Assembly: GCA_026417735.1 (NCBI GenBank)
Contig: JAOACR010000009.1
Location: 203,641 to 267,640, forward strand
Reading direction: 5' to 3'
Source: Kiritimatiellia bacterium
GTDB taxonomy: Bacteria > Verrucomicrobiota > Kiritimatiellia > PWTM01
DNA: 64,000 bases
The notes under the pieces were generated by a model. That model was not told the origin of the DNA. It saw nothing but the letters and a program-made list of their open reading frames with translations, and did no database searches. Both the position numbers and the translations under genes were made by a program. Of this stretch, positions 16,712 through 32,768 are shown in pieces. The number at the start of each line of letters is the position of its first letter. The stretch's first letter is position 1.

Positions 16712-18097
16712 TCAGCGGACGGCGACTCGCCAACACCACAGCCGTGGCGAGCCACCAGTGAGAAGATCGCGGTCATTCTGCACCACCAGCAGTCGCCCGC
16801 GCGAAAACGCCGGCGGGCTCCACGTCTGCCGCGCGAAGAACGGCGACACGTGGCCCAGCAGTTCGACGCGCTCGCGCGAGAGACGCAACCAGAGCAGATG
16901 CCCCAGCTCACCGAGGCAGATCATTCGCCCCCCCGCCTCCGCCAACCAGCCGCGCATCACGCCAACGGTCACCGGCCGTCGCCCGTCCGCCAGCGGCACC
17001 TGCTCGACCCAGCGCAGGCGGTCGCGCCAGAGCGTCGCACCGGTCTCGAGATCCAGACACAACAGCGCGTTGTCACCGGGGCCGTGTCCGACGATCAGAA
17101 ATGCGCAGCCGTCGCGCGCAAGTGGTTGCATGATGTGGACCCCAGTTTCGCGGTTCGTCCATACCGGCGTCAGACGGCCGTCCACCCCAACGCGCAGCAT
17201 CACCGTGCCACGGCCATAGCATTCCGAAATCAAGACGCGGTCAGCGACGACCAGCGGCGGCGCCGCATTCACGGACTCATGGGGACGGCCGCGCCAAGGG
17301 AAGCGATCCAGCTCCCGGCCGTCCGCCGGATCGAGCACGAGCAGTCCACCATTGGGCGGTCGGCTCTCACCCCCGGTAAACACAAACAGCCGGCGCCGGC
17401 CGTGCACGGTCGCCGCAACCGGCGCCGCGTATCCGGCGGACCAGCCATGGCCCGAGGCCCACACCTCGCGCCCGCTCGCCGGATCGAGCGCGATCACACA
17501 GGGGCCGCCTTCCGGTGCGCCCACCACGACCACCAGTTTGCCTCCCTCCAGCAGTGGCGTGGCGCCCATCCCGAAAAAATTTTGTCGCAGCCGGTACTCC
17601 GCCGCCAGGTCACGCGTCCAAAGGAGCCGCCCGTCAGCCGCGCTCAGCACGTCCAGCCGCGCGTCGGCACCCAGCATGAATACACGCCCGTCGCCGACGA
17701 CCGGACTGCAGCGCGGTCCGCCGTTGTAGTTGTAGCGGTCCACATAGGCGGTTGGCCGGCTGAACCGCCAGAGCCGCCGGCCGCTTTCCAGCTCGAGGCA
17801 GTCCACGATCGCCTCGTCGCCCAGCCGGTGGCCCAGGAAAACGCGGCCGTCGGCGACGACCGGCGCCGCATAGCCCTCGCCCTTCGGGTACGTCCACTCA
17901 ACCGGCAGCCCTCCGGCCGGCGGGCGCTCCGGCCAACCGGTTTCCCGCGTGGTCATGTCCAGATGCGGGCCCAGGAGGTGGGGCCAGTCTGAGACAACCG
18001 CCGGGGCCTCCGGCACCGTGGCGGCCGCGCCGGCCAGCAGCAGCATGGCGAGGGGCGCGGCGACGTCAGCGCACCGTTTCGCACACCAGGCCGACAT
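16712..18097 (-). CDS. Exported PQQ-like beta-propeller protein
   Basis: About 461 residues. The body consists of repeated propeller blades with the PQQ-type pattern ([54 protein letters not shown]). Such domains occur in quinoprotein dehydrogenases, the BamB scaffold and many uncharacterised PVC proteins; none of the catalytic residues of quinoprotein dehydrogenases is evident. A hydrophobic N-terminal segment ([15 protein letters not shown]) is a likely signal peptide. The start is uncertain: ATG 18097 overlaps the GH2 fusion by 32 bases and gives a normal n-region, while ATG 18046 gives a very short one. Its place between a glycan hydrolase and rhaA suggests a role in glycan handling at the envelope. 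Confidence 0.7.
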
Positions 18098-21000
18098 CCA
18101 CGTACTGGCCGCCACCGGTCTGCCGGCAGGTGACGGCGATCGTGAGCGGTCCGGCGTCCAGCGTGCGCACCAGGTCAGGCGCCAGCGGTACCAGTTCATA
18201 GCTGGTCAGAAAGCCGCTCTGTCGGAACGCGAGGCGGCCATTCAGGTAGACCTCGACGTCTTCATCGTGGTGGATGCGCAGCCACACGCGGCTGTTGCGC
18301 AGATCCGGAATGGTGACGCGTCGGCGCAGCCAGATGCGCTCGGTGTTCCATTCCGTGCCGACCGCGGCGCCGGGCGTGCCGGGCGTGCCGAAGCCGCCCG
18401 GCGCCTCTCCCCAGGCCGAGTCGTCAAAGTCCGGACGGCTCCACTCCGGCGGCGGGGCCCTCAGCGAGTACCGCCACAGCTGCGGCGAGTCGTCCGACGT
18501 CGGCACGATCGCGCGTAACGCGGGCGGCGGCGGGATCGGTGCGTACTGATCGGCCTTGGTGCGGTCGCGCGCAGCCCATTTGCGCCAGATGTCGTCGTGG
18601 TAGAGGACCGGCAGAAACACCGCGCCGACGACGGGGCGGGCGGTGAAGCCGCGTTTGCGGGCAGTGGAGGTGAAGTACCAGTCGGTCATCGGGGAGCGAT
18701 CCGGCGTTTCGTTCAGGAAACGGATCACCGGCATCACGAGCGCGTCGAAGTCACGTTGGCGGCCGGTGAGGGTGGCGGTCCAGACGATCCAGTCGAGCTT
18801 CGTGTAGTCGGCGCGGTTGTCGAGCGGCAGGCCATAGCGGTTTTGCACGCGGCGGTAGTGCGCCATTTCGCGGCGGGCGACCTCGGGGGGAAAGAGATGG
18901 AGGCCCAACAGCCGGTCCCACACCAGGTTGTACTTCTGGCTCCACGTGCCGGGCCGATCGAACGCAAGCCGGTAGTGGTCGCCGTCGTCAGCGGCGCGCA
19001 TCCACTGGGCGGCAAATTGCCGCGCGAGGTCCCGGAACTGCGCGGCTCGTGCGTTGTCGCCCCAGGCCTCACAGAGCTGAGCATAGGCGCCGAGCGCGCA
19101 GATCGCTTTCAGGCTGAGGTTCGCATTGTGGGCGAGGTGACCGGCGAAGTCGTCGGTGCAGAGCTGGTGCTCCGGATCGAATCCCTTCTCGCGCAGATAT
19201 TCCGCCCAGCGGTCCAGCTGCGGCCGCCACCGCGCCGCGAAGTTCGCATGACCTTCCAGTTTCGCGACCGCGGCCATCAGCAGCAGCAGATTGCCGCTTT
19301 CCTCCACCGGCATCTGATTGGCCTCGCTGGTTTCGCCGCCGCCGTAGCGCTGGCCGTTCGCGTGCGGATAGGTGCCCAGATCGTGCGGCGCGAACGGAAA
19401 CCGCCACCGCTCCGAAGCCGCGTAGTTCATGAACGGCACCAGGAAGGAGCGCGCGAGCGACGGACCGAAGAGCAGAAACTGCGGCGCCATGGGATAGAAG
19501 ACATCCGCGGTGCCGATGCAGCCGTTGGAGTGGTTCTCCTTCGAGAACTGGATCGGCTGGCCGTTCGCGTCGGCGACAAACTTCCCCGCACCGAAGCACT
19601 GGCGGTACGCGAGCGCGGCGAGCCGCGCATACGGACGGCCACCTACGCGTTCGAGGTCCGCCATCAGTTCTCGATCAAACGCTTCGCAACGACGGCTGAG
19701 CTCGCGGAAGTCGCGCGCGGCGGCGGCCAGCAGGTCGGCGGCCTCCCAGCCGGCGCGTCGCCAGTAGGGCCGCAGATCGGTCTGCATGTACCGAATGGAC
19801 CAGAGATCGTCGTAGGCGAGCATCAGCCAGCCGAGCGCACCGTCGCGGTCGGCGCGCCCGAGGTTCATCGCGAGCGCGCCCCAGGGAGCCTCGGCGGCCG
19901 CGGCAGGGGCCGACGTGCTCGTTGCGTCCGGCGGCCAGGTGCCGGACTCCGCAAACGCGGCGCGCAGCCGCAGCGGGTCGCCCAGCGCGGTCGTCGCCCC
20001 TTCGCGCGCCGGCGCGGCCAGGTAGAGGTACCCCCAGTCAATCCGCACGTCATCGCCGCGGCGCACGAGGACCGGCTGGTCCACGGTGCCCACGCGCAGC
20101 GCGACGAGGCCCTCCATCGAAGGCGCAGTCCATTCGACGATCTGCGCCGGCTCGTTCACCGCCAGCTCCGGCGCCACATCGAGGTAGAACTGCGCTGTTC
20201 GGACACGACCATCCAGCGGCCGCACAAAACAACTTACGTACGTGACCGGGCGCGACAGGATGTCGAGATCTTCCGGCAATACGGGCGTGATGAACGCCAG
20301 CGACACGCGCACTCCGTCCTCCTCGAAGTGGTAAATCGTGCGCGTGGGCAGCACCTCGAGCGAAGCGAGCCGCATCGGCGGGATCGAGCGCGGCGACGAG
20401 CCGAGCAGCCGCCACGTCCGCCCGTCCAGGCGGAGCAGCGCGGTGAGCCGGTGCGGCCGCCCCGTCCAGTGCTCGGTGGGCGCAGCGGCGGGGTGGTCGG
20501 CCGGCGACCAGATACTGAAATAGGGGTCGTGGACCACCAGCGGCACCGCGGGCGGCGTCAAGCGGTCGGGCGCATGCCGGCGGGACTCTGGAGGCGCATA
20601 CAGGCGGCGGATGTGCGGCGCAACCCGTTCCGGCGGAATCTTGAACACCGCGCGGTCGTAGGTCATCAGACCGTTCACCTCGATCTCCACGTCCGTCGTC
20701 TGCGTGTAGACCGCGGCGGATAGACCGGGCGCGCCGGTCAAGGGGTGCAGCCGGTCGATCAAATCGAGAAACGCCTCGGTGAGATAGTTCGTGTCGCGGT
20801 AGGTGCGGTAGCCCCAGTTGCGGTCGGGCTGCCACAGATGGCCGGCGAGCGGCAGACCAAGTCCGCCGAATTCACCCAGCACGAGCGCGCGGCGCGGGTC
20901 GAGCTCGTTCGGCGCCACGGGATCGGGATAGTGGTGCAGATCGCGGACGTCACCGCTGCCGCGATCATGCCAGCCGCTGGCCTCGTTCACAGGGCGCGTC

Positions 21001-22400
21001 GGATCCAGCTGGCGAACCAGCTCAGTGTAACGGGCGGTCTCGTGCTGGCCCCAGCCCTCATTGAAGGGAATCCACATCACGATCGATGGATGGTTGAAGC
21101 GCTGGGTGACCATCGCGCGCAGCTCCCGCTCAAACTGCGCGGCGGCCTCGTCGGAACGGCGCCGGTCCAGCCGCCCGTCGCCGGCGTCCGCGTTGGGCAT
21201 GTCCTGGAAGACCAGCATGCCGAGCCGGTCGCACCACCAGTACCAGCGCTCGGGCTCGACCTTCACATGCTTGCGGATCAGGTTCATGCCATAGGCGCGC
21301 GTCGTTTCGATGTCGAAGCGGAGCGCCTCGTCGGTGGGCGCGGTGTACAGGCCTTCCGGCCACCAGCCCTGGTCGAGGGGGCCGAACATGAACAACGGCC
21401 GCCCGTTCAGGTGCAGCCGCAGCACGCCGGCCGCATCGCGACGGACCTCGATCGAACGCAGACCCGCATACGAGGTGACCCGGTCTACCGCCTGTGTGCC
21501 GCACCAGAGCGTCACCGCCAGGTCGTAAAGATGCGGTGACTCGGGCGACCACAGCTTCGGGCTCGGGATCTCCACGCGCAGCACCGCATCGGCCGGCCCG
21601 CGCGCGACCGCAACACGGCGCCCGTTGTCGAGCACCTCCACGCCCAGCTCCAGCGGGCCGGCGTCGGCCGGGGGCGGCCCGTGGCAGGCGGTGTCCGCCT
21701 CGAGCTCCAGCGAGCCGTCCGCCGCGCGCGGTGTCACGCGCAGCGAACAGATGTGCGCGCGCGGCACCGGCTCGAGCCACGGTGTCTGCCAGATGCCGGA
21801 GACCGGCGTGTACCAGATCCCATGAGGGTTCAAGTGCTGTTTGCCGCGCGGCTGGTACCCGGCGGAGGTCGGGTCCCACACCGCGACCATGAGCGTCTGT
21901 GTGGGTCCCGGCTGTAGAGCATCGGTGACGTCGAACGAAAATGCGTCGTACCCGCCGCGGTGGCGGCCAACCTCTCGGCCGTTCACGATCACCACTGCCT
22001 CCCAGTCGACCGCGCCGAAGTGCAGCAACAGCCGCCGGTCGCGCCACCCTTCCGGCACCACGAACGTCCGGCGGTACCAGAGGCGCTCCGCCGGCGACAC
22101 TCGCCGCCCCACGCCGCTGAGCGCCGACTCGACCGGATAGGGCACCAGAATGCGAAGCGGCCATTCGGACGGTGCCGCCGCGTTCGTCGGCGTGACCGCC
22201 AGCTCCCAGACTCCGTTGAGATTCTGCCAGTCCGTCCGTACCAGCGTCGGCCTCGGGTACTCCGGCCAGGGAGCCTCAGGATTCACCCGTGCCGCCCAGC
22301 GTGTCCGGAGCCCTCGTGGCGCATTCGTGGGCTGACCTCCTCCGTTGACGACCAGCGCAAGCCACAGAATGACCGACAAGAAGATTCGATGTCGCGGCAT
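18066..22400 (-). CDS. Secreted GH2 glycosidase fused to a glutaminase A-like (DUF4965-type) module
   Basis: A 1444-residue exported protein. Residues 1-22 are a signal peptide; GGAG precedes the ATG at 22400. Residues about 50-600 are a complete GH2 unit: jelly-roll (LNGVWEL, WYRRTF, GYDAFSFDVT), Ig-like domain and TIM barrel, with putative acid/base Glu448 in PFNEGWGQ and nucleophile Glu510 in VLGEFGG. From about 613 the sequence switches to the glutaminase A-like architecture (PLVVHDPYFSIWS, SKENHSNGCIGTADVFYPM, YPHANGQRYGGGE). Residues about 1300-1444 form a second GH2-type sugar-binding jelly roll (WSRPDFDDSAW, WLRRRVTIP). Being first in the rha operon suggests action on a rhamnose-containing glycan; substrate unknown. 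Confidence 0.85.
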   Translation of the reverse strand: MPRHRIFLSVILWLALVVNGGGQPTNAPRGLRTRWAARVNPEAPWPEYPRPTLVRTDWQNLNGVWELAVTPTNAAAPSEWPLRILVPYPVESALSGVGRRVSPAERLWYRRTFVVPEGWRDRRLLLHFGAVDWEAVVIVNGREVGRHRGGYDAFSFDVTDALQPGPTQTLMVAVWDPTSAGYQPRGKQHLNPHGIWYTPVSGIWQTPWLEPVPRAHICSLRVTPRAADGSLELEADTACHGPPPADAGPLELGVEVLDNGRRVAVARGPADAVLRVEIPSPKLWSPESPHLYDLAVTLWCGTQAVDRVTSYAGLRSIEVRRDAAGVLRLHLNGRPLFMFGPLDQGWWPEGLYTAPTDEALRFDIETTRAYGMNLIRKHVKVEPERWYWWCDRLGMLVFQDMPNADAGDGRLDRRRSDEAAAQFERELRAMVTQRFNHPSIVMWIPFNEGWGQHETARYTELVRQLDPTRPVNEASGWHDRGSGDVRDLHHYPDPVAPNELDPRRALVLGEFGGLGLPLAGHLWQPDRNWGYRTYRDTNYLTEAFLDLIDRLHPLTGAPGLSAAVYTQTTDVEIEVNGLMTYDRAVFKIPPERVAPHIRRLYAPPESRRHAPDRLTPPAVPLVVHDPYFSIWSPADHPAAAPTEHWTGRPHRLTALLRLDGRTWRLLGSSPRSIPPMRLASLEVLPTRTIYHFEEDGVRVSLAFITPVLPEDLDILSRPVTYVSCFVRPLDGRVRTAQFYLDVAPELAVNEPAQIVEWTAPSMEGLVALRVGTVDQPVLVRRGDDVRIDWGYLYLAAPAREGATTALGDPLRLRAAFAESGTWPPDATSTSAPAAAAEAPWGALAMNLGRADRDGALGWLMLAYDDLWSIRYMQTDLRPYWRRAGWEAADLLAAAARDFRELSRRCEAFDRELMADLERVGGRPYARLAALAYRQCFGAGKFVADANGQPIQFSKENHSNGCIGTADVFYPMAPQFLLFGPSLARSFLVPFMNYAASERWRFPFAPHDLGTYPHANGQRYGGGETSEANQMPVEESGNLLLLMAAVAKLEGHANFAARWRPQLDRWAEYLREKGFDPEHQLCTDDFAGHLAHNANLSLKAICALGAYAQLCEAWGDNARAAQFRDLARQFAAQWMRAADDGDHYRLAFDRPGTWSQKYNLVWDRLLGLHLFPPEVARREMAHYRRVQNRYGLPLDNRADYTKLDWIVWTATLTGRQRDFDALVMPVIRFLNETPDRSPMTDWYFTSTARKRGFTARPVVGAVFLPVLYHDDIWRKWAARDRTKADQYAPIPPPPALRAIVPTSDDSPQLWRYSLRAPPPEWSRPDFDDSAWGEAPGGFGTPGTPGAAVGTEWNTERIWLRRRVTIPDLRNSRVWLRIHHDEDVEVYLNGRLAFRQSGFLTSYELVPLAPDLVRTLDAGPLTIAVTCRQTGGGQYVDVGLVCETVR

Positions 22401-22775
22401 CGTCTTCGCTCCTTTTCCGGGCACTCGGGTGATCCCTGAAGACCGCCTCAGATGGTCAATCTTGTGCTCCGACCAAGTCAAGCGAGCGGCGTTGAATTGA
22501 AGCGGCGCGGCGAGACGATCGGCGAGCACGGTGGTCGCCCGGATTCGGCGTCCAAGGATGGGAGGTTCAGAGCGGGAACTTGTCCAAGGCATGGAGCCCC
22601 GACGCCCACGGCCGGTGGAAGGGAAGATCCAAACATTGGACGGACGAGGGATTTGGACGTATGTTGGTGGCTGCGTGAGGCGAGGACGGCCGGTCTGACG
22701 CCGAGGGACCCGCCGGTGTGCCGCAGGGATCTCACCGCGCAGGTCGCCGCTCGCCCAGATGCGGTCCGGGCAGAA
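22401..22775. other. Divergent intergenic region between the rha operon and the TM1266-hydG cassette
   Basis: About 375 bases. On the minus strand TTGACT (22476-22481) with a weak GACCAT (22452-22457) at an 18-base spacer is the best promoter candidate for the glycan operon. On the plus strand TTGGAC (22636-22641) with TATGTT (22660-22665) at an 18-base spacer could serve the hydG cassette. I see no operator palindrome of note and no credible gene; the open frame that extends upstream from the regulator has no conserved sequence before codon ATG 22776. Confidence 0.4.
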
Positions 22776-23051
22776 ATGGAATCACGGCTGGGGTTTGTCG
22801 GCATTGTGGTGAGCGACCGGCAGAGGGCCGCGGCGCGAGTGAACGAGGTGCTCTCCGAGCACGGCCACCTGATCGTCGCGCGCACCGGCCTGCCCTATCC
22901 GAAACGGGGAGTATGCGTCATCACGCTGATTGTCGATGCGACGACGGACGAGCTGGGCCGCCTGACCGGCCGGCTCGGACAGATTGAGGGCGTGCTGGTC
23001 CGCTCAGCCCTCGCGCGACCCGCCGCGACAACAGCGGAGGCAACACAATGA
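22776..23051 (+). CDS. TM1266-family small ACT-like regulator (iron-only hydrogenase system regulator)
   Basis: A 91-residue protein opening MESRLGFVGIVVSDRQRAAA, followed by VNEVLSEHGHLIVARTGLPY and the strand-rich KRGVCVITLIVDATTDELG. This matches the small alpha/beta family of Thermotoga TM1266, commonly found beside [FeFe]-hydrogenase maturation genes and annotated as a putative regulator. The family has an ACT-like fold and no DNA-binding helix is visible, so a ligand- or protein-binding role is as likely as transcriptional control. The stop overlaps the hydG ATG (ATGA), which ties the two together. The start is set by the conserved N-terminus; the ribosome site is weak. Confidence 0.75.
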   Translation: MESRLGFVGIVVSDRQRAAARVNEVLSEHGHLIVARTGLPYPKRGVCVITLIVDATTDELGRLTGRLGQIEGVLVRSALARPAATTAEATQ

Positions 23052-24565
23052 GCAGCGCCGCGTCGGCTGTTCTGCACGCAGGTGGGCGCTGGGCCGAAAC
23101 CCGCATTGCGATGGAGGAGATCGCAAAGTGGCGGCCCGGTGGTTGCGACTTCCTCGACGCCAACGCCATCCGGGCGGCGCTGGCCCGCGCCGCGGAGCGC
23201 CCCACCGACCCCGGCGAGGTGCGGGCGATCCTCGCAAAGTCGCGGGCGGTGCAGACGCTCTCGCTCGACGAGCTGGCGACGCTGCTCCATGTGCGCGATC
23301 CGGAGCTGTGGGCGGAAATGCGCGCGGCGGCCGCGGAGATCAAGCGGAAGGTGTACGACAACCGCATCGTCACGTTTGCGCCGCTGTACATCGGCAACGC
23401 CTGCGTGAACGACTGCCAGTACTGCGGGCTGCGCAGTGGCAACCGCTCGATGCCGCGGCAGATCCTCACCGCGGAGGAGCTGCGCGCGGAGGTGGAGACG
23501 CTGGCAGGTCGGATCGGCCACAAACGGCTGATCATCGTGTTTGGGGAACACCCGGCCACCGACGTCGAGTTCATGTGCGAGACGATCCGCATCATCTATT
23601 CGGTGAAGGTCCGCGCGCGCGTCGGATGGGGCCAAATCCGGCGGGTGAACGTGAACGCGCCGCCGCTGCGCACCGCGGAGCTGCGGCAGCTCAAGCAGGC
23701 CGGGCTGGGCACCTACCAGGTCTTCCAGGAGACCTACGATCCCGATGTGTACCGCCGCGTCCACCCGTCCGGCTTCAAGGCGAACTACGCGTGGCGCCTC
23801 TACACCATGCACCGAGCGATGGAGGCCGGTATTGACGATGTGGGGCTCGGCGCGCTGTTCGGTCTGGCGGACTGGCGCTTTGAGGTGATGGGGCTGCTGG
23901 CGCACGCGATTGAGCTCGAACGTGCCTGCGGAATCGGCCCTCACACGATCTCCTTCCCCCGCCTGGAACCCGCGGACAATGCGCCCTACGTGCAGGAGAC
24001 TCGATGGCGCGTATCGGACGAGGAGCTCGAGCGCGCGGTCGTGCTGATCCGGCTGGCCGTGCCGTACACCGGCATGATCCTGACCGCGCGCGAGGGGCCC
24101 GCCATGCGCCGACGGCTGATCGGGTTGGGCGTCACCCAGACGGACGCCTCCTCGCGGATCGAGGTCGGCGGCTACGCCGGCGGCCGCGCGGATCGCGCGC
24201 AGGACCCCTCCCGCCAACAGTTTGAGCTCGGCGACACCCGCAGTCTGGACGACCTGGTTCGCGAGCTGGCTCAGATGGGGATGATCACGTCGTTCTGCAC
24301 TGCCGGCTACCGCTGCGGCCGGACCGGCCAGTGCATCATGGACCTGCTGCGCAGCGGCGCGGAGGGGCGGTTCTGCAAACTGAACGCGATCATCACCTAC
24401 CGGGAGTGGCTGGACGATTTCGCCAGCGACGAGACCCGCGCGGTCGCCGAACCGCTGCTGCAACAGGAGGTCGAGGAGGTTCGGCGCAACATGCCGCGCT
24501 GGTTCCCGGCACTGAGCGCCGCCCTTGAGCGAACCGCGAAGGGCGAACGCGATCTCTATTTCTAG
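23048..24565 (+). CDS. hydG: HydG-family radical SAM enzyme with altered auxiliary-cluster motif
   Basis: A 505-residue radical SAM protein aligned in recall along its length with HydG, which cleaves tyrosine to supply CO and cyanide for the [FeFe]-hydrogenase H-cluster. The SAM cluster motif is C119-VND-C123-QY-C126. Other HydG blocks are present: GTYQVFQETYDP, AMEAGIDDVGLGALFGL, GPHTISFPRL, AVPYTGMILTARE. The C-terminal auxiliary [4Fe-4S] motif CX2CX22C is not intact: positions 417 and 443 are Cys but position 420 is Gly (CTAGYRCGRTGQC), and two extra cysteines appear at 423 and 429. It may be a paralogue with a different product or a HydG with re-routed ligands. hydA, hydE and hydF are absent from the window. 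Confidence 0.85.
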   Translation: MSSAASAVLHAGGRWAETRIAMEEIAKWRPGGCDFLDANAIRAALARAAERPTDPGEVRAILAKSRAVQTLSLDELATLLHVRDPELWAEMRAAAAEIKRKVYDNRIVTFAPLYIGNACVNDCQYCGLRSGNRSMPRQILTAEELRAEVETLAGRIGHKRLIIVFGEHPATDVEFMCETIRIIYSVKVRARVGWGQIRRVNVNAPPLRTAELRQLKQAGLGTYQVFQETYDPDVYRRVHPSGFKANYAWRLYTMHRAMEAGIDDVGLGALFGLADWRFEVMGLLAHAIELERACGIGPHTISFPRLEPADNAPYVQETRWRVSDEELERAVVLIRLAVPYTGMILTAREGPAMRRRLIGLGVTQTDASSRIEVGGYAGGRADRAQDPSRQQFELGDTRSLDDLVRELAQMGMITSFCTAGYRCGRTGQCIMDLLRSGAEGRFCKLNAIITYREWLDDFASDETRAVAEPLLQQEVEEVRRNMPRWFPALSAALERTAKGERDLYF

Positions 24566-24600: not shown

Positions 24601-24942
24601 ATGAACATTCTGCAGATCGGAGGAATCGCATTGGCGGTGGTGGTGGTGGGGGTGGGCGCGGTCGCCAGCCGTACAAGCGTGCGTTCCGCCGTCGGCCCGC
24701 GCGAGCGCGCGTTCGCGCGCCGCGTGTGTCTGGCCACCTGGACCCTGATCGCCGCGTTCGTCCTGACCGCATGGTACCTGCCGCGGCCGGCGAACTGGGT
24801 GGTCTCGGCCGGGTTTGTAATCGGCATTCCGTGGGCAGTGTACCGTTGGACCACGCAGCGGCAGCTGATCCGTGAGCTGGACCTTCGCGAAACGCACGCG
24901 CGCAACCACGAAAACGCGCTCGCCTCCCGAGCCGGCAACTGA
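24601..24942 (+). CDS. Small membrane protein of unknown function
   Basis: A 113-residue protein with three hydrophobic segments (IALAVVVVGVGAVA, WTLIAAFVLTAWYL, WVVSAGFVIGIPWAVY) and a charged C-terminal tail (RELDLRETHARNHENAL). GGGGAG lies 12 bases before the ATG. It follows the hydG homologue by 35 bases on the same strand and probably shares its transcript. I do not recognise a family. A membrane partner or anchor for the hydG cassette is possible but unsupported. Confidence 0.55.
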   Translation: MNILQIGGIALAVVVVGVGAVASRTSVRSAVGPRERAFARRVCLATWTLIAAFVLTAWYLPRPANWVVSAGFVIGIPWAVYRWTTQRQLIRELDLRETHARNHENALASRAGN

Positions 24943-30178: not shown

Positions 30179-30281
30179 TGCGGGCCGGCCACGTTGCGCT
30201 TGCTCGCCCCCGCCTCCCGCGTACTCTGGTCGCTGGGGTGTGCGAGCGGCACATCGCCAAACCGGGAAAGGAGCTTCCGCG

Positions 30282-32768
30282 GTGAGGCCGCGGCCGAGGA
30301 TGGGGTGGAGGGGGCGGTGGACGGCGGTTGGCGCTGTGCTGCTGCTCCGCACGCGCGCTGCCGCGCCCCAGGACGATTACCGACAGCCCCCGCCAGAACC
30401 CTCGTCCATCGTCGAACGTGAGGTGCGGCCGCCAACCCGCCCCCTCCTTGCCCGCTCGGGTGACCCGCCGGCGATTCGCGACGCGATTCGTCTCACCGAG
30501 AACGGCAACGTGGCCGGCGCGATCGCGAAGCTGGAGGAGGAACTGCGGGCAACGCCCGAGCAGCTGCGGTTGTGGGAGGTGCTCGGGCTGCTGTACTGGC
30601 GCACCGGCGAACCCCAGCGCGCGGAAACTCTCTGGAAAACATGCCGCAGCGTCGCCAGCCATCGCCCCGAACCCAACAAGTGGCTCGCCGAGCTGGCCAT
30701 CGCGATGGGGCGTCTTGCGGAGGCCGTCACTCATTACGACCGCGCGCTGCAGGTGGCGCCGGCTGATCTCGACGCGCGGTTTCAGCGCATCCGACTGCGC
30801 CGCTGGTTGGGCTGGGTGGAGGAAGCGCTCGCGGAAATCCGCGAGCTGTGCGAGCGTTACCCCGACCGCGCCGACTTCCGCCGCGAGATGGCCGCCGCGC
30901 TGTTTGCGCACCGCGACTACGCCGAGGCCGCCCGACTCTGGGCGCAGGTGCGCCAGGAGCGACCGAACGATCCGGATACGTGGATTCGTGAAGTTTGCGC
31001 CCGCATCCACGACACGGGCGACGAGTCCGCGATTGCGGAGGCTCGCGCGTTCCTGCAGGAACACCCGGATCACCTGCTGGCCACGCGCACGCTCGCGCTG
31101 GCCGCACGCCGTCGCGGCGATCTGGAGGAGGCGCTCCGTCATACCCGCCGGTTGGCGGAGATCGAAACGACACCGTACGCACGGCGGCGCTGCGCACTGC
31201 GATGCGCGGAGTATCTCTCGACGCTCGCCGCACGTGATCACAGGCCCTCACGGTACGACCAAGCGATTGCGATCCTCAACGATGCGCTCGCACGGGACGG
31301 CCCCGATCCGGACGTCGAACTGCTGATCGCAGAGACGCTCATCGAGGCGGCCCGCTATGCGGAGGCCAGCGAGGTCGCTCGACGGGTGCTGGACAAGTTC
31401 AACCCCCGGAACCTGCGAGCGCTTCGCGTGCTGTTCGAGGCCCATCTCGGCCTCGCCCAATTCGATGAGGCAAGACAATGGTGGGAACGGATCGTCGCCT
31501 TCAATCCTCGCGACCCCTACCTCGCCTACTATGAAGCGCGCCTTCACCTCGCCGCGGAGCGTCACGCGGACGCGATCACCGCGCTCGAACGGCTCGAGGA
31601 GGCGGGCCGCCGGGGTGCGGTCGCCGTGCTCCTCTACCACGGCGCTGGAGAAAGCGAATGGAGCGAAGTGCCCTCGGTGTCACAGATCACCGCACACGTC
31701 GAGGCGCTGCGCGCGGCGGGCTATCGCTTTGTCGCCGCGCATGAGATCCCCGGGCTCCTCGAGAGCGGGGGTGCCGCGTTTGTCGGCGGCCGCACACCCC
31801 GTCTGGCCTGCATCACCTGGGACGACGCGCGACGCGATGCGATTCGGCATGGCACGCCACTCTCGGCCCGGCTGGATGTCCCCATGACGATGCACGTACC
31901 CGTCGGCTTCGTGAAGGAACGTCACCCCTTTATCGCCAGTTGGCCGGCGCTGGAGCAAGCCGGGCGCGAAGGGCGCTGGCACTTTGGCAGTCACGCGCTC
32001 GACGCTCATCGCCCCGCAATCGTGAATGCGGAGGGCCAGCTGGGTCCCCCGCTTGCCAATCGTCTCTGGCTGCCGTCCCACCAGCGGCTCGAATCGGTCA
32101 CGGAATTCCGCCAGCGTCTCGTTCGCGAATACCGCGAGAGTCATCAGGCACTGATCGAACATTTCCGCCGGCCGGAGGACGCCGCGGTGATCGCCTATCC
32201 CTTTGGCGACATCGGACAGCTCGGCCGCAGCAACATGGAAGAGGCGTCCGCACTGAACCTCGAGATCGCGGCCCTGTACTATCGGGTCGGCTTCATTCAG
32301 ACCGCGTTCGGCCACGCCGTCGCCGGTGACCATCCCCTTCTCTACCAGCGCACCGAACCGGACTTCGGCGAGACGGGTTCCAATCTGGTGGTACGGTTGC
32401 TCACCCACCATCCCCACATGCTGGGCCGTGCGATGAAGGCGGAGGCGGCTGCGATGGCGGGACGCATGTACCTGGCACGAGACACGCTGCTGGACCTCGG
32501 GCGGGATGGCTACCCGCCCGAGCGATGGTTCGAGCTGCGGGGGCGGCTGGAACGTTACCTCGGCCATTCGCTGATCGGATGGTTGCCGGCTACGCCTCCC
32601 CCGCCCGCCCCCGTCAAGGAACCTCTGCGCCCCCCCCCGCCCTCACCCGCAAAGCCGCGCTCGTCGGAGGCGGGTCCGCTCCCCCCGACGCCACCCCTGC
32701 CGCGGCCGGCGGAAGAGGAAGGGACTGCGCCGGACAACCTCCGCTCCGAGGTGGAGCGGCTCCGTTGA
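30282..32768 (+). CDS. Exported TPR protein fused to a PgaB-like polysaccharide deacetylase domain
   Basis: An 828-residue protein starting at GTG with AAAGGAG eight bases upstream, then a signal-like segment (WTAVGAVLLLRTRAAA). Residues about 60-440 are tandem TPRs (VAGAIAKLEEELRATPEQL, AVTHYDRALQVAPADLDAR). From about 450 a NodB-type fold follows: AVLLYHGAGE, ACITWDDARRDA with the Asp-Asp pair, HFGSHALDAHR with two His as in PgaB, and IAYPFGDIGQ. This would remove N-acetyl groups from an extracellular hexosamine polymer. The Pro-rich tail (about 770-828) is low complexity. TPR plus deacetylase recalls PgaA and PgaB in one chain. The next gene overlaps by one base. Confidence 0.8.
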   Translation: MRPRPRMGWRGRWTAVGAVLLLRTRAAAPQDDYRQPPPEPSSIVEREVRPPTRPLLARSGDPPAIRDAIRLTENGNVAGAIAKLEEELRATPEQLRLWEVLGLLYWRTGEPQRAETLWKTCRSVASHRPEPNKWLAELAIAMGRLAEAVTHYDRALQVAPADLDARFQRIRLRRWLGWVEEALAEIRELCERYPDRADFRREMAAALFAHRDYAEAARLWAQVRQERPNDPDTWIREVCARIHDTGDESAIAEARAFLQEHPDHLLATRTLALAARRRGDLEEALRHTRRLAEIETTPYARRRCALRCAEYLSTLAARDHRPSRYDQAIAILNDALARDGPDPDVELLIAETLIEAARYAEASEVARRVLDKFNPRNLRALRVLFEAHLGLAQFDEARQWWERIVAFNPRDPYLAYYEARLHLAAERHADAITALERLEEAGRRGAVAVLLYHGAGESEWSEVPSVSQITAHVEALRAAGYRFVAAHEIPGLLESGGAAFVGGRTPRLACITWDDARRDAIRHGTPLSARLDVPMTMHVPVGFVKERHPFIASWPALEQAGREGRWHFGSHALDAHRPAIVNAEGQLGPPLANRLWLPSHQRLESVTEFRQRLVREYRESHQALIEHFRRPEDAAVIAYPFGDIGQLGRSNMEEASALNLEIAALYYRVGFIQTAFGHAVAGDHPLLYQRTEPDFGETGSNLVVRLLTHHPHMLGRAMKAEAAAMAGRMYLARDTLLDLGRDGYPPERWFELRGRLERYLGHSLIGWLPATPPPPAPVKEPLRPPPPSPAKPRSSEAGPLPPTPPLPRPAEEEGTAPDNLRSEVERLR

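Follow-up and report, generated by a model that had tools for sequence, protein, structure and literature searches.

A genuine HydG from a widespread subtype whose second auxiliary-cluster ligand has probably moved

The window, i.e. the whole stretch of 64,000 nucleotides that was analysed, encodes a genuine HydG of a widespread and already noticed subtype in which one cysteine of the auxiliary cluster is relocated, with Cys423 as the putative new ligand and a chemistry that is presumably unchanged. The most likely reading of the residues is that the second cluster ligand has shifted by three positions, giving CX5CX19C in place of the usual CX2CX22C. Very probably, the protein is a working HydG, with its C-terminal cluster held by Cys417, Cys423 and Cys443, that serves the [FeFe]-hydrogenase of its own genome. 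The gene, its upstream neighbour and the residues concerned are as follows.

22788..23051, + strand: putative regulator of the iron-only hydrogenase system, TM1266 family, overlapping the start of hydG (TIGR03959, 98.1 bits vs a cut-off of 60.8)
23048..24565, + strand: hydG, CX5CX19C subtype, radical-SAM tyrosine lyase / Fe(CO)2(CN) synthon maturase, 505 aa (TIGR03955 and AlphaFold match to 4wcx_A)
23402..23425, + strand: radical-SAM cluster motif C119-X3-C123-X2-C126 (from the translation; invariant in both HydG subtypes)
24134..24136, + strand: Thr363, sole residue seen to accompany the ligand shift in each of its two appearances (Thr in 115/115 CX5C, Ser in 48/49 CX2C)
24296..24298, + strand: Cys417, first auxiliary-cluster Cys, codon TGC (Cys in 164/164 aligned HydGs)
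24305..24307, + strand: Gly420 replacing the usual second auxiliary Cys, codon GGC (Gly throughout the CX5C HydGs, Cys throughout the CX2C HydGs)
24314..24316, + strand: Cys423, proposed relocated second ligand, codon TGC (present whenever 420 is Gly and absent whenever 420 is Cys, 140/140 in the phylum census)
24332..24334, + strand: Cys429, codon TGC, not conserved (Cys in 59/115 CX5C HydGs)
24374..24376, + strand: Cys443, third auxiliary-cluster Cys, codon TGC (Cys in 164/164 aligned HydGs)

The hydG product scores 441.7 bits against TIGR03955, for which the curated equivalog cut-off is 312.15, and is thereby a member of the HydG family, whereas its score of 246.5 bits against the ThiH model TIGR02351 falls short of the cut-off of 380. 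ThiH (2-iminoacetate synthase) shares the radical-SAM tyrosine lyase fold, and the ThiH structure 7pd1 matches the barrel of the window HydG, but ThiH is without the C-terminal cluster domain. The radical-SAM CX3CX2C motif is intact in the window HydG (C119, C123, C126), as stated in an earlier note on this DNA, and the codons, read directly, agree with that note's description of a CX2CX22C spacing with Gly at 420, Cys417 and Cys443 retained, and Cys at 423 and 429. The textbook C-terminal motif is thus lacking. This motif was not taken as defining HydG, since it is known to vary and C-x(5)-C-x(19)-C has been counted as a HydG signature (PMC9431212); with any known spacing allowed, the three C-terminal cysteines for a [4Fe-4S] cluster are present (C417, C423, C443).

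The predicted structure leads to the same family. An AlphaFold model of the window HydG, built from 39 CX5C sequences, has a pLDDT of 91.6 and is predicted to adopt the HydG fold over its whole length, with 4wcx_A as the best match (TM 0.97, rmsd 1.7). In total, 87 positions are conserved in both HydG subtypes, including all SAM-cluster cysteines and His286. The latter corresponds to residue 266 of the 4wcx chain in the alignment, and all 164 aligned HydGs have His there. Its position is presumably that of the dangler-iron ligand (His265 in published numbering), and His286 is likely to be the dangler-iron histidine of the window protein.

The HydGs of Thermoanaerobacter italicus (4wcx) and Carboxydothermus hydrogenoformans (4rtb) resemble the window HydG in whole-length fold, radical-SAM motif, conserved barrel residues, C-terminal domain, and the first and third auxiliary cysteines. 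They differ in having CX2CX22C, Ser at 363 and Asp/Glu at 255, whereas the window HydG has CX5CX19C, Thr363 and His255. Both HydG crystal structures found, namely these two, are of the CX2CX22C type, and no structure or assay of the CX5C subtype was found in a literature search. The same search found the CX5CX19C spacing in HydG in a single 2022 genome survey, of clostridial acetogens, in which C-x(5)-C-x(19)-C was described in Clostridium autoethanogenum HydG (CLAU_RS03260) and supposed to coordinate the C-terminal cluster, with Duffus et al. 2012 cited for the variability of the C-terminal motif (PMC9431212). The likeness to this HydG from another organism is by published motif only. The CX5CX19C variant is therefore not new, as the motif has already been named there, but a known and widespread subtype. 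The present analysis shows in addition how widely it occurs, that it and the usual motif strictly exclude each other, that it appears twice and that Thr363 changes with it, together with the finding that variant-bearing genomes possess a complete maturation set and no other HydG.

The variant is shared among relatives of the window's genome. In the class sample, 28 of 58 related genomes have a gene at HydG level, one each; 16 of these (L001-L016), including all gene-bearing members of the window's own family, carry the variant and invariably read CTAGYRCGRTG, and the remaining 12 read CT(A/S/G)CYR(L/M)GRTG. At least 118 named contigs, spread over many phyla, matched FCTAGYRCGRTG in a scan of GTDB contigs; Lentisphaerae, Kiritimatiellae, Omnitrophota, Spirochaetes, Desulfobacteria, Bacteroidia, Planctomycetota, Clostridia, Archaeoglobaceae and others are represented among the matches listed. 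The suggestion that a sequencing error at 24305-24307 might have removed a TGC codon is contradicted by Gly420 in every gene-bearing close relative and in at least 118 independent contigs. More generally, it is practically impossible that the reads or the assembly are wrong or that the gene is decaying, as HydGs with open frames and 48-88% identity, in congeners and across phyla, show the same residues, and no support for error or decay was found.

Positions 420 and 423 follow a strict either/or pattern. The alignment of 164 HydGs contains 115 sequences with C417-G420-C423-C443, a count biased by the fact that most of them were found by motif, and 49 with C417-C420-x423-C443. In the 115 aligned CX5C HydGs, a set partly chosen by motif, residue 423 is always Cys. 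A fairer test is provided by a census of 289 genomes of the window's phylum, for which the search pattern left 423 free and allowed G, C or W at 420. Among 140 matches, 38 were G420/C423, all from the window's own class, and in 102 residue 420 was Cys and residue 423 was L, E, K, S, A, Q or M; not one of the 140 carried Cys at both sites, and not one lacked it at both. The census pattern found 137 genomes, compared with 139 that have a HydG above the family cut-off, suggesting that few HydGs escape it.

These data bear on which residue completes the cluster. The idea that the cluster is held by two cysteines and another residue, or by Cys429, with a different role for Cys423, draws on the presence of Cys429 in the window HydG and in roughly one variant in two, and on the fact that ligation by Cys423 is something we infer; nevertheless, it is quite improbable, because 56 of the 115 variants have K, R, H, T, Y or another residue in place of Cys429 and Cys423 is strictly exclusive with Cys420. 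Strict exclusivity at 420/423, together with an unconserved Cys429, points to Cys423 as the natural replacement ligand and to Cys429 as incidental and probably not a ligand. Thus, of the "two new Cys" that the earlier note had proposed as substitutes for the missing ligand, Cys423 is supported and Cys429 is not. In the AlphaFold model, residues 420-422 form a short helical turn, which would place 420 and 423 about one turn apart, plausibly facing the same way.

Trees were built without the motif columns. The CX5C HydGs fall into a single clade (bootstrap 99, SH-aLRT 94), bar one Halanaerobiales sequence (L117), which groups with the CX2C HydGs of the window's class (97/92), suggesting that the change to CX5C took place twice. 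Gly420 and Cys423 arrive together in both appearances. The CX5C state is probably derived, as judged from a paraphyletic CX2C background and with ThiH as a distant outgroup. Sixteen positions separate the main CX5C clade from CX2C HydGs, including Asp255 to His, and the site may therefore differ in more than one ligand. Of five co-varying positions that were tested, only Ser to Thr at 363 accompanies the shift in both appearances, although two contrasts cannot reach significance; the Asp to His change at 255 is confined to the main clade.

The genome that contains the window has one HydG, one HydE (C11, 311 bits) and one HydF (C7, 518 bits), together with a HydA match of 299 bits, and is thus equipped with HydE, HydF and HydA. 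Two PF02906 proteins are encoded, one of which has complete H-cluster motifs; this main HydA carries TSCCPAW, MPCTAKKFE and EVMACRGGCVGGGGQP, the intact motifs of the H-cluster. The second PF02906 protein (G000:C9:311421-312095; L203:1833-4034, - strand) consists of an [FeFe]-hydrogenase-like domain followed by a region that appears histidine-kinase-like by eye. Consensus H-cluster motifs are absent from it, and it is probably a sensory HydA-like protein.

A comparable set of genes accompanies the variant elsewhere. In the 16 variant-bearing genomes of the class sample, HydG is single in 16/16, HydA is present in 16/16, HydF is above cut-off in 16/16 and HydE in 15/16, the exception being a genome that is 68% complete. 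Among the matches listed, HydE, HydF, HydA or TM1266 lies within a stretch of at most 8 kb on 66 of 118 variant contigs, commonly in the order hydA-TM1266-hydF-hydG-hydE; Omnitrophota, Planctomycetota, Spirochaetota and Desulfobacterota are among the groups in which such hyd clusters flank the variant. Two complete genomes, those of Desulfosarcina widdelii and Clostridiaceae M8S5, encode HydA and no HydG other than the variant; in D. widdelii, a stretch of about 6 kb contains hydG, hydE and hydA. HydA was not found in a variant-bearing 1.4-Mb MAG of Thermodesulfobacterium geofontis. Peptoclostridium litorale (L118/L240/L252) has two HydGs, one of 701 bits that adjoins a HydE-like match and one CX5C HydG of 461 bits.

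The earlier note had also raised the possibility of a HydG paralogue with another product, i.e. a radical-SAM tyrosine lyase recruited elsewhere. Several conserved positions do differ from CX2C HydG, the presence of both types in P. litorale would allow a division of labour there, and the P. acidaminophilum variant has no further annotated hyd gene at a distance of up to 12 kb. Against this, a sole HydG with a full maturation set, in hyd clusters of many phyla, fits an H-cluster maturase and leaves little room for such a paralogue, which is highly improbable. Nor does the idea of an anomalous HydG hold up, given that the same substitution is found in HydGs whose genomes encode complete H-cluster maturation.

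In HydG, the C-terminal [4Fe-4S] cluster carries a labile iron, bound by a histidine and a free cysteine, and is the building site of Fe(CO)2(CN) (PMC6212873). For the variant, the N-terminal radical-SAM cluster would cleave tyrosine to CO and CN-, from which the Fe(CO)2(CN) synthon for the genome's [FeFe]-hydrogenase is predicted to be built, at the C-terminal [4Fe-4S] cluster and the dangler iron attached to it. The C-terminal cluster would be held by Cys417, Cys423 and Cys443 (CX5CX19C), with the second ligand displaced along the chain by roughly one turn of helix and Gly occupying the old place. On this basis Cys423 would ligate iron, and the product would be the same as that of other HydGs. 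It is conceivable, albeit rather unlikely, that the shifted ligand, Thr363 and His255 together affect how the dangler-iron site is oriented or its electronic state, and that CX5C HydGs consequently treat the synthon in a different way within the same pathway, e.g. in its retention or in the supply of cysteine or iron. A natural shift of a cluster ligand by one turn, twice on the tree, bears on the freedom of the synthon-building site. In addition, genuine HydGs would be overlooked by annotation based on a strict CX2CX22C motif, and the 2022 survey has noted that variable motifs complicate HydG identification (PMC9431212).

Three other open reading frames in the window were also noted. Directly 3' of hydG, at 24601-24942 (+), lies a 113-aa ORF that has hydrophobic stretches and may encode a small membrane protein; neither Pfam nor NCBIfam gave a match. 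At 18066-22592 (-), a 1508-aa ORF shows an unusual fusion of glycosyl hydrolase family 2 domains (129-539) with DUF4964/DUF5127/glutaminase A six-hairpin domains (676-1327). An 842-aa ORF at 30240-32768 (+) matches only TPR-like families, with TPR repeats in its N-terminal half; its C-terminal half has no profile match but appears polysaccharide deacetylase-like by eye.
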